From positions 1 to 64,000 of the forward strand of contig NZ_RHNY01000009.1 in the NCBI RefSeq assembly GCF_003946345.1: DNA of 64,000 nt, in the 5' to 3' direction. A program made the translations under genes and the position numbers. This DNA comes from Levilactobacillus tongjiangensis (GTDB lineage Bacteria > Bacillota > Bacilli > Lactobacillales > Lactobacillaceae). Positions 31,380-63,729 of this stretch are shown piece after piece. Position 1 is the first letter of the stretch; each line of letters starts with the position of its first letter. Below the pieces are notes generated by a model, which saw nothing but the letters and a program-made list of their open reading frames with translations, searched no databases and had not been told where the DNA came from.

Positions 31380-31550
31380 GGTCTGAGACAAAAGTTTCAG
31401 ACCTTTTTGTGCTCCGAACGTATATGGTCGAAACGTGCGACAAAAGGCAGTCAACGCCACTTAACCCCGCTAGACAGACAATCCAAGACTGGGATTATTC
31501 GTCGACCGACGTTAATGCTCATTGACTACCAGCCTTTCGTCTCACTCTGT
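31380..31550. repeat. Structured 3'-end repeat, copy A (after pepC)
   Basis: About 165 bp are homologous to 45302-45472. The element is bounded by TGAGACAAAAG (31384-31394) and CTTTCGTCTCA (31534-31544), which are inverted repeats matching at 10 of 11 positions. The left end is a bidirectional terminator-like hairpin (GGTCTGA...TCAGACC with TTTTT). Inside are GGCAGTCAA (31446-31454), which pairs with TTGACT...GCC (31522-31534), and AATCC/GGATT. It begins about 11 nt beyond the pepC stop codon, so it forms or follows the pepC mRNA 3' end. Function unknown. Confidence 0.75.
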
Positions 31551-31555
31551 TTTGA

Positions 31556-32890
31556 TTATTGCAGTGAATCCCACGCAGGTAATGGTTCTGGTTCCGTCGT
31601 TAACAGTGCTTGTTGGGCAGCTGTCAGATAACGCTTGTGAACGACGACCTCGTAAACGAAGTCGTCCATCCAATCGTCTGTCATGACAAAGTAACCCTTG
31701 TCACCATTCTTTTCACCCCAACTGTTTTCAACTTTCCAGCGAGTCGGTTCGTCCGCAACTAAATCGACACCGGTCAACGTCATCGCATGTGAGACCTCCG
31801 CCTCACCAGTTGCCAAACGCTGGGCCTTCGTCAAACCTAGGTCGACCCCAAACAAATCACTGATCTGATATAGATGACTGTCGAGGAAGCCCTGTTCGCG
31901 GCTCATCTGTTGAAGAACATCGTTCCCAAACCACACCGTCTCACTATCCTGCAATTGCGCAATGGCGGCTCGCTTCAAGTCTGCCATTGGCTCATTGAGC
32001 ATCGTGATGTGCTTACCACCAACGATGTTATCCTGACTAGGTAAACTGTATAAGCGGTCAAATGGCTTATCTGGAGAATTCGACAAGACCACGTAATCGT
32101 CCAAATCAATGTCGAAGTACTTGTCAAAGAAGCCCTGTGGTGTCAGATCTGCATCGCGATGATATTGGTGCTTATCATCCTTATATTCTAAATCAAACGT
32201 GGTTGGCGGTTCACCAAAGGCGTAAGCGGCCATGCGATAAACTTCCTTCAACGCAGCGGCTCGCGTGGACGCAATCTGTTCTTCGCTAGCGCCATCTGCG
32301 ACTAACTTCCGGAGTGTGAGCGCATCCTTCCGCAACTTCAGATTTAAGGCAGACCCGATTCCCGTCGTGTCGTTAGTGTTAAAGGATTCTGGCATAACGC
32401 TTGCCGGAACGACCCCATACTTTTGAACCAGTGCGGCCCCCATAGCCCACTGACCACCATCATCGTCCGGTCGTTGCAGGAAAAACGCCACTTCCCGATC
32501 ATCTAGCGGCTTATCCGCCGTTCGTAGAATATTGTTGTAAAACATATTGGCCCGTTCGATTCGGTCCCAGAAAAATAGATAGCTCTGCGATAACTCGAAA
32601 TCTTTGACCCCATACTTCGTAGCAAATTGATGACGAATTGTATTCAGTGTCGAAAACAACCAGCACCGGCCAGAATGCTTCTGGTTAGAAACTTTACCGG
32701 TATCCAATTCCACGGAAAACGTTCGGTCTAGGCGAACCGTTGCTTGGGGATCCTCAGCTGCTGCTAACACCCCATTCTTAATAACTGCCCGACTAATGAC
32801 GTCGTGCGCGGGTTGTTGCTGTAGATCGGCATGTAACTCTGCCGTCTCTGCGGGACTTAAGACATGTGCCTGTTGACTATCTTTTGGCAT
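31556..32890 (-). CDS. pepC: Aminopeptidase C (bleomycin hydrolase family, C1)
   Basis: PepC is an intracellular cysteine aminopeptidase that trims peptides imported by lactic acid bacteria. The papain-fold triad is complete: Cys76 in SGRCWLF, His in EVSHAMTLTGVD (about 368) and Asn in VENSWGEKNG (about 390). The length (444 residues) is that of the family, which forms hexamers. The protein has no signal peptide. The ATG has AGAGGAG 6 nt upstream. The structured repeat copy A lies at the 3' end. The C-terminus is ...PAWDSLQ, slightly different from the canonical end. Confidence 0.96.
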   Translation of the reverse strand: MPKDSQQAHVLSPAETAELHADLQQQPAHDVISRAVIKNGVLAAAEDPQATVRLDRTFSVELDTGKVSNQKHSGRCWLFSTLNTIRHQFATKYGVKDFELSQSYLFFWDRIERANMFYNNILRTADKPLDDREVAFFLQRPDDDGGQWAMGAALVQKYGVVPASVMPESFNTNDTTGIGSALNLKLRKDALTLRKLVADGASEEQIASTRAAALKEVYRMAAYAFGEPPTTFDLEYKDDKHQYHRDADLTPQGFFDKYFDIDLDDYVVLSNSPDKPFDRLYSLPSQDNIVGGKHITMLNEPMADLKRAAIAQLQDSETVWFGNDVLQQMSREQGFLDSHLYQISDLFGVDLGLTKAQRLATGEAEVSHAMTLTGVDLVADEPTRWKVENSWGEKNGDKGYFVMTDDWMDDFVYEVVVHKRYLTAAQQALLTTEPEPLPAWDSLQ

Positions 32891-45058: not shown

Positions 45059-45297
45059 ATGATTAGCTACGCAAAGTCAGTGGTACCCTGCTTACTGATA
45101 AATAAGCTGCACCACCGTTTGTTGCCGTTATCTAGGGGTGGCGTAATCACTTACCAGCCAACCGTTTAACGTTGTCTCACTACAGCTTCTACCTTACCGA
45201 AGCTATGTTGAAATCTTGCAAAGAATCGGTAAAGATTGTGTTTCCTTTTTATTAATATATTGATATTAGACGTTAATTAATAATTATTAATAACAAA
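45059..45297. other. Intergenic stretch without recognisable features
   Basis: The right part (45250-45300) is strongly AT-rich. I find no open frame with a ribosome site. A possible -35 (TTGAAA, about 45210) has no matching -10. Confidence 0.4.
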
Positions 45298-45301
45298 AAA
45301 G

Positions 45302-45472
45302 GGCTTGAGACAAAAGTCTCAAACCCTTTTTGTGCTCCAAACGTAAATAGTCGAGACGTGCAACAACAGGCAGTTAACTCCGCTTAACCCCGCTAGACAA
45401 ACAATCCAAGACCGGGATTATTCGTCTAGCGACGTTAATGCTCATTGACTAACCGCCTTTGGTCTCACTCTC
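45302..45472. repeat. Structured 3'-end repeat, copy B (after mnmG)
   Basis: This is homologous to 31380-31550, with inverted ends TGAGACAAAAG (45306-45316) and CTTTGGTCTCA (45457-45467). The left end is a bidirectional terminator hairpin (CTTGAGAC-AAAA-GTCTCAAA, T run on both sides). Inside, CGCTAGAC (45391-45398) pairs perfectly with GTCTAGCG (45424-45431), enclosing AATCC/GGATT. GGCAGTTAA (45369-45377) pairs with TTGACT...GCC (45445-45457). TGAGAC can pair either with the adjacent GTCTCA or the distant one, so two folds compete. It begins about 14 nt after the mnmG stop. Confidence 0.75.
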
Positions 45473-45481
45473 TTTTCAATG

Positions 45482-47392
45482 CTAATCGACCTTAGCAATT
45501 TTTCCCTGTTCAATGTAGACACTCAGGATAGCAATATCGGCAGGGTTGACCCCACTGATTCGGCTAGCCTGCGCCAACGTTTCCGGTTGAATCTTCTTCA
45601 ACTTCTGGTGCGCCTCAGTTGCGAGTCCATCAATAGCATCGTAATCGATCTTGGCTGGAATCGCCTTGGCTTCCATCCGCTTCAGCTTGGCCACGTTCTC
45701 TTCAGCCTTCTTGATGTAACCAGCGTACTTCAAAGAGATTTCAATCTCCTCAACGATGTGCCGATCTAACGGCTGTTCTGGCGCTGGCATGAACCGCAAC
45801 AACGTTTGGTAGTCCACGTATGGCCGGCGCAAGAAGGCAGCTGCTAACACGCCATCCTGCAGGGGCTTGTCCCCGTGGCTCTGAACAAACGCGTTGATAT
45901 CATCCCCAGGCTTGATTCGAATGCTGTTTAGCCGGTCAATTTCAGCCTTGAGCGCCGCCTTTTTAGCCAAGAAGGCCTCGTAGCGTTCATCACTGATCAA
46001 TCCCAGTTCATGGCCCTTAGCAGTCAACCGTAAATCAGCATTATCGTGCCGCAAAATTAAACGGTATTCGGCCCGACTTGTCAACAGACGGTAAGGTTCG
46101 TTAGTCCCCTTGGTGACCAAGTCATCGACCATCACACCAATGTAAGCATCGGAACGCTTCAGCGTAAAGCCAGGCTTACCCTGGGCCCGTAAACCGGCGT
46201 TGATCCCAGCTAACAGCCCTTGGCCAGCAGCTTCTTCGTACCCAGATGTTCCGTTCGTTTGGCCCGCTGTAAACAAGTTCTTCAGTGGCTTCGTTTCCAG
46301 CGTTGGCCGTAACTGGTATGGTGAAACGACATCGTATTCAATGGCGTAACCTGGCCGCATCATTTGGGCATCTTCTAACCCCTTGATGGAGTGCAAAATC
46401 TTCTGCTGAACTTCTTCTGGCATAGACGTTGATAGTCCCTGAACGTACCATTCATCAGTCTTACGACCTTCTGGTTCGAGGAAGAGTTGATGCCGTGGCT
46501 TGTCAGCAAACCGAACGATTTTATCCTCAATGGATGGGCAGTAACGGGGGCCAACACCTTCGATCACGCCGGTAAACATAGGCGCACGGTCTAAGTTCTC
46601 TCGAATAATATCGTGCGTTTTGGCGTTCGTGTAGGTCAACCAGCACGATAGTTGATTCTTCAGGTCTAAATAAGCACTGTCGGGCGTGGTGAAACTAAAG
46701 TGGTTAGGTTCCACGTCGCCGGGCTGTTCTTCCGTTTCATCGTAATGGATCGTATTGCCATCAACCCGTGGTGGGGTCCCAGTCTTAAACCGTTCCAAGT
46801 CAAAACCATACTTGGGCAGGTTCGCCGTCAGCTTAGTCGCTGGTTGCGAGTTGTTAGGACCGGAAGAGTACATTAATTCACCAATGATAATTTTACCGCG
46901 GGCAGCCGTTCCGGCCGCAACGACCACGGCCTTGGCACTATAACGAGCCCCCGTATTCGTGATGACCCCGTGACAGACGCCATCTTCTACGATTAAATCA
47001 TCGACGATTCCCTGCCGCAAAGTCAGGTTCGGTTCGCGTTCCAAAGTGTGCTTCATTTCAGCGTGGTAAGCATGCTTATCTGCCTGTGCTCGCAAGGCAC
47101 GGACAGCTGGGCCCTTCCCCGTATTGAGCATCCGCATCTGAACGTAAGTCTTGTCGATGTTTTGGCCCATCTCGCCACCCAGGGCGTCAATTTCACGGAC
47201 AACGATTCCCTTGGCTGGACCACCCACGGATGGGTTACATGGCATAAACGCTACCATATCAAGATTGATCGTCATCAACAGGGTCTTATTCCCCATCCGA
47301 GCAGCGGCTAAGGCTGCTTCACTACCGGCGTGACCGGCACCAACGACGATAACGTCGTAGTTCTCACCGGGATATTGCTTTACTTCAGTCAA
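45482..47392 (-). CDS. mnmG: tRNA uridine-5-carboxymethylaminomethyl modification enzyme, FAD subunit
   Basis: MnmG (GidA) works with MnmE to place carboxymethylaminomethyl groups on wobble uridine 34 of several tRNAs, using FAD and tetrahydrofolate. The 636-residue protein has the FAD-binding [21 protein letters not shown] at the N-terminus, the GGxAKG loop (PSVGGPAKG), and the typical C-terminal helical domain ([16 protein letters not shown]). mnmE lies 62 nt upstream on the same strand, and the two are probably cotranscribed. The C-terminus is followed at once by repeat copy B. Confidence 0.97.
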
Positions 47393-54923: not shown

Positions 54924-55399
54924 CCGAACGACTTGGGGTGTATCGCAATGTATGAGAGGGTCTGAGGCATAGGTCTCAGACCTTTTTTGTCGCCGATTTT
55001 GCTGCGCCGGAATGTGGCCAGGTAGTAGCTAGTTCTGAGTAGCAAATAGGTTGCATCTGAGAATTTATCCGGAGGGGGGCAGCCACGGTCTGTCACCTGC
55101 CAATTTGACGAATTGGTCCAGGTAAACACTCACGGTGGGTGAAACCTTGCAAACCAAGTGAAAGCTGACCTTATTTTGGGGTGAAATTAGTACTTGCGTG
55201 CGCAATTAATGGCTGTTTTCGATTAATAAACGGTAAAAGTTGGATTTGAGCACAAAAAAAGGCATATTTTGATATAAGCGGGTTCTTTTTTGTTCTGAGC
55301 AAATTTAGTAGCTTTTTACCAAAAATATCATAAACGGCCTAAATCGGCTGAGAACGCAAAAATAAGGTGGTCAACCTGTACCTTTCGTTTAAAAAGCGG
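54924..55399. other. Intergenic region between dnaN and yaaA
   Basis: It contains the dnaN terminator (54959-54988) and a long imperfect inverted repeat. The arms are 55292-55308 and 55339-55355, 17 nt each with 14 pairs and a 30-nt spacer. The rest is AT-rich without an open frame with a ribosome site. Confidence 0.5.
54959..54988 (+). terminator. dnaN terminator
   Basis: GGTCTGAG and CTCAGACC form an 8-bp stem around an 8-nt loop. TTTTTT follows. The stem is similar to the left end of the two 3'-end repeats, but nothing else of them is present. Confidence 0.8.
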
Positions 55400-61386: not shown

Positions 61387-61624
61387 GTGCTCATTTGGCT
61401 AAAGATAAACGACGGTCTTGGAAACGCTCGTTGGGATGAGCGAGCGTTAAAGCTGATGTTAGTCGACTTTGTCTCTCAGAAAGCCAGCCGTTACTTGCAG
61501 AAAAGATAAGTCTTACAAGGCGATTAGTTTTGGTGATATACCATTACATGATTTCACCGATATTTGGCAAAATGAAAACATATGTTAATTATTGAGTAGC
61601 ATGTACTTTTCTTCACGACCATGT
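61387..61624. other. Intergenic stretch between gyrA and the surface protein gene
   Basis: No gene is seen. An 8-bp stem (AACGCTCG 61423-61430 / CGAGCGTT 61441-61448) has a 10-nt loop and no T run. The right part is AT-rich and leads into the surface protein promoter. Confidence 0.4.
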
Positions 61625-61662
61625 TATAGTGACTTTAGACAGATAGGCGGATGTGTTACAAA
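61625..61662 (+). promoter_or_regulatory. Promoter -10 and conserved leader of the surface protein gene
   Basis: TATAGT (61625-61630), TTAGACAG (61635-61642) and GATGTGTTACAAA (61650-61662) recur with exactly the same spacing before the next surface gene (63692, 63702, 63717). Confidence 0.6.
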
Positions 61663-63610: not shown

Positions 63611-63691
63611 TTGCATAAGAAACAAGTTCGACAGCCAGTAAAATCGACGATTAATTGGTGCGCATAGGTAGATTTTTAACCATTTCGCGCT

Positions 63692-63729
63692 TATACTACG
63701 GTTAGACAGTTTGATCGATGTGTTACAAA
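63692..63729 (+). promoter_or_regulatory. Promoter -10 and conserved leader of the second surface protein gene
   Basis: TATACT (63692-63697), TTAGACAG (63702-63709) and GATGTGTTACAAA (63717-63729) have the same order and spacing as in the upstream surface gene. Confidence 0.6.

Follow-up and report, generated by a model that had tools for sequence, protein, structure and literature searches.

Results

Layout of the element behind mnmG

The window, that is the whole stretch of 64,000 nucleotides of Levilactobacillus tongjiangensis DNA that was analysed, carries at the 3' end of mnmG a structured element that shares the gene's strand and runs from 45471 down to 45294, as mnmG on the minus strand ends at 45482. 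In gene direction a core hairpin, whose first bases AGAGTG begin ten bases past the mnmG TAG, is followed by a linker, an intrinsic-terminator hairpin and a T-tract (Table 1). The 184 nt of the gene-sense strand fold at -83.6 kcal/mol with a z value of -9.62, which none of 200 shuffles equalled, bearing out the strong structure that an earlier note on this DNA had read from the letters. The helices named there are present as well, CGCTAGAC pairing with GTCTAGCG around an inner AATCC/GGATT, and GGCAGTTAA with TTGACT...GCC. The single 162-bp body closed by its own ends, as the note had drawn the element, gives way to a unit made of a 122-nt core, a linker and a terminator hairpin. The homologous copy claimed behind a pepC-like gene, of the aminopeptidase C / bleomycin-hydrolase type, is indeed in the window.

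Table 1. Positions of the features at the two copies of the element in the window (R1, covariance model built from 27 copies of the same genome)
Feature	Position	Strand	Basis and remarks
Core hairpin, 122 nt (AGAGTG ... CACGTCTCGAC)	45350..45471	-	R1 place C43:45350-45471, 4.2e-31, sense strand; among the sequences that R1 was built from; fold z -9.62
Linker, 23 nt (TATTTACGTTTGGAGCACAAAAA)	45327..45349	-	sequence; common to long-form copies
Intrinsic-terminator hairpin GGGTTTGAGACTTTTGTCTCAAGCCC	45301..45326	-	sequence and fold
T-tract behind terminator hairpin	45294..45300	-	sequence
mnmG, 3' end bears the copy	45482..47392	-	ORF; name from the earlier note
Second core copy	31427..31548	-	R1 place C43:31427-31548, 1.8e-28; in the R1 seed; 89% identical
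Terminator hairpin of second copy	31380..31403	-	sequence
pepC-like gene upstream of second copy	31556..32890	-	ORF

A stand-alone terminator resembling those of the long form (see below), with no core, lies at window positions 54959-54996 behind an ORF taken for dnaN and is 79% identical to a 38-nt stretch of the pepC copy. This type of terminator may be common in the genome. Elsewhere in the window a 39-nt direct repeat (74%; 61624-61662 and 63691-63729) flanks a gene that encodes a large protein whose end is LPQTG-like.

Copies, fold and covariation

BLAST of the own 2.7-Mb genome gave 49 matches at about 40 distinct places. R1 gave 77 matches there at E ≤ 0.01, from which antisense echoes and short fragments were removed by eye, leaving 42 taken as sense copies for the position counts. 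The copies come in two forms, a long one with the shared linker and terminator and a short one (L030, L032, L033, L034, L036 and L039) that ends after CACGTTTCRGC and continues into other sequence, with a different terminator seen by eye behind four of the six.

When 27 of 33 own-genome cores were aligned without structure (alignment A1, which omits L019, L022, L026, L028, L029 and L031), double compensatory changes were found in 25 of 45 pairs, and 94.2% of the cells were paired as against 86.8% in shuffles and 31-41% with the partners slid. Alignment A4, in which 51 copies were fitted to the model, showed double changes in 44 of 45 pairs, with 91.4% of cells paired versus 58.7% in shuffles. 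Compensatory change on this scale indicates that the core fold is under selection. On the gene-sense strand G-U cells outnumbered A-C cells by 122 to 30 in A1 and by 144 to 30 among 57 non-redundant copies, obtained by running R1 on 77 loci (124 rows), removing overlapping opposite-strand matches (93 rows) and cutting at 82% identity. Since strand-symmetric mutation would not give G-U so great an excess over A-C, we infer that selection acts on the gene-sense strand and that this strand is what counts, either as RNA or as single-stranded DNA.

The sequence of the upper stem varies freely and its length is kept: of the 117 named matches listed for an exact sequence pattern, 113 have 43-48 nt separating the conserved halves. 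Of the remaining four, one has 2 nt, and in three, one of which lies at the end of its locus, no right half could be recognised. Over 51 copies, drawn from several families, the core measured 113-128 nt, and in 46 of them 120-126 nt. A stem of near-fixed length and free sequence, with covariation and G-U bias on the sense strand, would also suit a 3'-UTR element useful to the host (a stabiliser, an RNase III site or a protein-binding site) that is selected gene by gene and does not spread by itself, an explanation to which we return with the occupancy of individual sites.

The earlier note had read the element as two competing folds, as in an attenuator. As examined here, such a switch would have the 5' arm GTGRGACAAAAG pair with the core in one state and with the terminator in the other, and so switch termination. 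The arm is indeed similar to the complement of the terminator's CTTTTGTCTC. When the longest uninterrupted helix joining the 5' arm to the terminator stretch was imposed, and only that helix, the fold was nevertheless worse by 26.3 kcal/mol in the mnmG copy and by 15.2 kcal/mol on average in 24 copies (range 4.3-28.8), and in the predicted folds the core hairpin and the terminator form together. The arm matched its own terminator no better than swapped terminators, 231 of 500 swaps doing as well, and for the arm against the core's own 3' side the count was 22 of 500. Moreover, the rival pairing showed no covariation and the element tends to sit behind genes, not ahead of them. An attenuator or riboswitch with two exclusive folds controlling a downstream part was rejected on the fold energies and the terminator-swap test; a switch of this kind is strongly disfavoured, and we give it hardly any credence.

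Position relative to genes

Positions were counted against ORFs of at least 100 codons in four sets of copies: the 42 of the own genome, 92 of the 117 listed pattern matches (the others lay too near the end of a locus), 18 from Enterococcus faecalis and 20 from other families. A same-strand ORF ended within 60 nt upstream in 26/42, 54/92, 13/18 and 12/20 copies, respectively, and an opposite-strand ORF ended within 60 nt of the far end in 3/42, 6/92, 4/18 and 2/20, the matching counts for random intergenic points being 235/1840 and 254/1840, a comparison that favours the sense side because the antisense distance runs from the end of the core, where the linker and terminator lie. With the limit set at 150 nt the sense and antisense counts were 28 and 17 in the own genome, 63 and 28 in the named matches, 14 and 6 in E. 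faecalis and 12 and 6 in the other families. A sense ORF end within 20 nt, overlaps included, was seen in 22/42, 45/92, 10/18 and 11/20 copies. A codon-based gene call placed a same-strand gene next upstream in 31 of the 42 own copies, within 20 nt in 24, and an opposite-strand gene in 11; by ORF ends, 16 of the 42 had no same-strand end within 60 nt. Copies are thus biased to stop codons in the orientation of the gene, and about half lie directly behind (within 20 nt).

A terminator-like hairpin followed within 115 nt downstream in 21 of 42 own copies, as compared with 37 of 341 random windows, in 11 of 18 E. faecalis copies (40 of 150) and in 7 of 20 elsewhere (21 of 126). This frequent place between a stop codon and a terminator is a further point that speaks for an element useful to the host.

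Distribution

At E ≤ 0.001 R1 had matches in 178 of the 397 genomes of Lactobacillaceae, spread over 22 of the 40 genera. The support that the earlier note had named for its element, many copies behind stop codons with compensatory changes, was obtained. Levilactobacillus, the genus of the window, had 24 R1-positive genomes, the own one included, and one more genome (G084) with no R1 match and two weak matches to R2, a second model built from 51 copies of several families, toward which R1 was additionally given 44 sources. Among those listed, the named exact-pattern matches fell in Levilactobacillus (strains of Levilactobacillus koreensis and L. yonginensis are examples that carry copies), Lactiplantibacillus, Lapidilactobacillus and records named only Lactobacillus sp.

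Across the order Lactobacillales 36 of 295 genomes were R1-positive; 20 of these belong to families f2, f5, f7 and f9. Of 39 chosen genomes, several of which had fed the model, R2 matched 23 at E ≤ 0.01; these include 9 of 14 genomes of f3, the family of E. faecalis, in which R1 under stricter filters had no match, and there was one match in f8. Of eight Lactobacillaceae genomes tried from other genera, five (G037, G018, G005, G013 and G016) had no R2 match under laxer filters, and the three tried genomes of f4, which we take to be Streptococcaceae, had none either. At the level of the phylum only 2 of 398 genomes had an R2 match at E ≤ 1e-4 under stricter filters, the own genome and one borderline case (2e-5), and this absence outside the order is a soft result, because under such filters R1 had missed f3.

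The borderline match, L332, belongs to a genome of the same class and another family (G994) and has what seems to be a second partial tandem unit directly behind it; it may mark relatives outside Lactobacillales. Tandem arrangement was also seen in G539 (f9), where three copies spaced 122 bp apart follow one another head to tail behind a single ORF, at its end (L286:833-1197), in a genome with at least 92 R2 matches, opposite-strand echoes perhaps counted, and in G629 (f5), where L294 and L296 hold tandem arrays of differing core hairpins behind genes.

At gathering score no Rfam 15 family matched in the window, and a search of seven loci at E ≤ 10 gave as the only match overlapping a core a microRNA model with E 1.2, far below its cut-off.

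Filled and empty sites

Within the genus mnmG was matched in 28 of 29 genomes drawn, and the pepC-like gene in all 29, the own genome being counted in both. At the 3' end of mnmG a full core is present in 1 of 28 loci, that of the own genome, with short remnants in L227 and L236 and a plain terminator with no core in L239. At the 3' end of pepC a core is present in 4 of 28 loci (own, L248, L259 and L260), with a remnant by eye in L274 and an unrelated terminator in L249. In the mnmG alignment the element shows up as a cleanly delimited additional segment of the own genome. At the two nearest sites that lack it, something resembling the end of the linker and the terminator is still present, and loss therefore fits this site as well as gain. 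Five copies (L024, L031, L227, L236 and L274) seem to be internally deleted with both ends kept, a recurrent form of decay.

These occupancies bear on the explanation by benefit to the host. The positions are not kept between species, as the counts of 1/28 and 4/28 illustrate, and this speaks against an element selected for its effect on particular genes; nor does such an element sit well with the five of eight Lactobacillaceae genomes that had no R2 match. Weighing this against the sense-strand fold, the fixed length and the place before terminators, we judge a host-selected 3'-UTR element unlikely. As positions are not kept and the fold is, the fold would serve the spread of the element more than any single gene.

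Homologues in Enterococcus faecalis and searches for mobility

In one R2-positive genome of f3, G638, a GyrB fragment of 207 aa shows 100% identity with the PDB 4gee chain, presumably that of E. faecalis, and on account of this match we take the genome as E. faecalis. R2 finds 18 homologous places in it at E ≤ 0.05, the best at 9.3e-11. All 14 copies measured of these 18 are 167 bp long, beginning at GGTCGGGA and ending with CACGCT or an equivalent of it, and consist of the core and a second hairpin. Their flanks tend to complement each other, with a summed score of 70 where shuffles averaged 52.7 and scored as high in 5 of 5000 cases, a pattern that insertion of the unit into the stem of a terminator would leave. 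Among 27 own-genome copies flank complementarity, and with it the sign of insertion into terminator stems, was not significant (91 versus 84.1, 707 of 5000 shuffles being as good).

Complementary flanks, as would follow from insertion into a stem-loop, and the filled and empty sites are also what one would expect of a repeat of MITE or REP type acting purely as DNA, on one folded strand of which a transposase would work, so that orientation would come from target polarity and RNA would be irrelevant. The strand preference fits single-stranded DNA too, and "EFAR elements in Enterococci" are named among MITEs in the available part of PMC3733652. Canonical MITEs have terminal inverted repeats of 15-30 bp according to the same part of that source, whereas by eye the two ends of the unit share an imperfect similarity of about 9-11 bp and no repeats of MITE length. 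There was no target-site duplication either, the longest abutting direct repeat in the 14 E. faecalis copies being 2 bp. No larger version with an insert between the hairpin halves occurred in the 117 named pattern matches listed.

Mobile DNA was also searched directly. BLAST with one window query found no copy in 72,556 plasmid and 50,697 phage records, and a tandem array used as query gave no match in a search of plasmid/phage type. In viral contigs the exact pattern was absent, and a looser pattern gave 30 stretches, none of them an R2 match at E ≤ 0.1. Such absence from plasmids and phages, within the limited reach of BLAST, is not what one usually sees with an element that hops freely. 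With a copy from f5 as query, the plasmid collection gave a 41-bp partial match to a single Aerococcus record. On balance we hold the DNA-only explanation to be a possible one, to be kept in mind, and rather doubtful.

Discussion

Any explanation of the element has to accommodate its copy number, its covarying fold, the strand preference, the bias in position and orientation, the filled and empty sites and the homologues in E. faecalis. We propose, as a probable reading about which we retain appreciable doubt, that it belongs to a Lactobacillales-wide, EFAR-like family of small mobile repeats whose sense-strand hairpin is kept by selection. The hairpin of about 122 nt and near-fixed length would be carried behind stop codons in gene sense, often with a terminator hairpin next, and in the genus of the window the unit of core, linker and terminator would have multiplied as a whole. 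Entry into the 3' ends of genes may occur by placement into or beside terminator stem-loops. It is conceivable that the hairpin, in the form of RNA or of one strand of DNA, is what the copying machinery recognises, because the hairpin is kept although the positions are not. Once placed, the repeat would be carried as a cap and terminator at the 3' end of the mRNA, neutral or mildly stabilising for the gene.

A bolder version would make the repeat a bacterial counterpart of SINEs, a non-coding rider on the 3' end of many mRNAs. An enzyme, of the host or itself selfish, would recognise its RNA hairpin, and the element would be copied by way of RNA into new terminators. It would account for the sense orientation, the placement within the transcript, the unit reaching as far as the terminator and the conservation of fold and not of position. 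We offer it as a speculation, and a rather improbable one.

Of the interpretation in the earlier note, a structured 3'-region element that is a small dispersed repeat has stood, and the attenuator-like switch has fallen. The statement that it matches no named family is right for Rfam, which holds no family matching the window element, and has to be amended by the homologous repeat of about 170 bp and two hairpins in E. faecalis, which fits EFAR/Efa-1. In the literature, with few subscription journals covered, we found no report of such a repeat in Lactobacillaceae, and PMC2229807 has no occurrence of Enterococcus, EFAR or Lactobacillus. If the proposed mobile-repeat family is real, a repeat that is in print only for Enterococcus (few subscription journals being covered) is an order-wide family, and a strong covariation signal that is missing from Rfam sits on the 3' ends of many genes of food and gut bacteria. 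R1 and R2 make the family countable across many genomes, and the annotation of 3'-UTRs, sRNAs and terminators in these bacteria should take the repeat into consideration.

Among known repeat classes, BOX, RUP and SPRITE are set apart by the three tried genomes of f4, taken as Streptococcaceae, that had no R2 match. The available part of PMC10969869 gives all three as repeats of Streptococcus pneumoniae, SPRITE holding terminator-like sequence, and the likeness to our family, compared by description only, is that of small dispersed intergenic repeats. The RAYT-associated REP is a palindrome of 20-40 bp in the part of PMC3733652 available, whereas the core here is 113-128 nt, and membership in that class was rejected on this difference in size.

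The likeness to the repeats of Enterococcus goes further. Filled and empty sites in close relatives, which one would look for in a member of EFAR/Efa-1, were found at mnmG and pepC among Levilactobacillus congeners. EFAR, on which Venditti and colleagues worked in 2007, is reported to be mostly 170 bp long with two stem-loops and to have stem-loops as targets, whose arms are partly kept. The E. faecalis homologues, at 167 bp and with two hairpins, resemble EFAR in this build, and their complementary flanks, significant in E. faecalis and not in the own genome, would correspond to the retained arms of a target stem-loop. The family described here differs in extending over Lactobacillaceae and f2, f3, f5, f7 and f9, with one match in f8, and in having a core that covaries on the sense strand and a bias to gene ends; it is likened to EFAR by description, not by sequence. 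Efa-1 is given in the accessible part of Petrillo et al. 2008 (PMC2267715) as an intergenic family of E. faecalis with 163 bp, 65 (18) copies and a predicted pair of adjacent stem-loops. Size, host and paired hairpins match the E. faecalis homologues, and from these features, as distinct from sequence, the two would be the same, whereas Efa-1 is listed in that part of the source for E. faecalis alone. By size, host and shape, EFAR/Efa-1 most probably belongs to our family as its Enterococcus part, and the repeat in the window appears to be a wide and so far unrecognised extension of this Enterococcus repeat.
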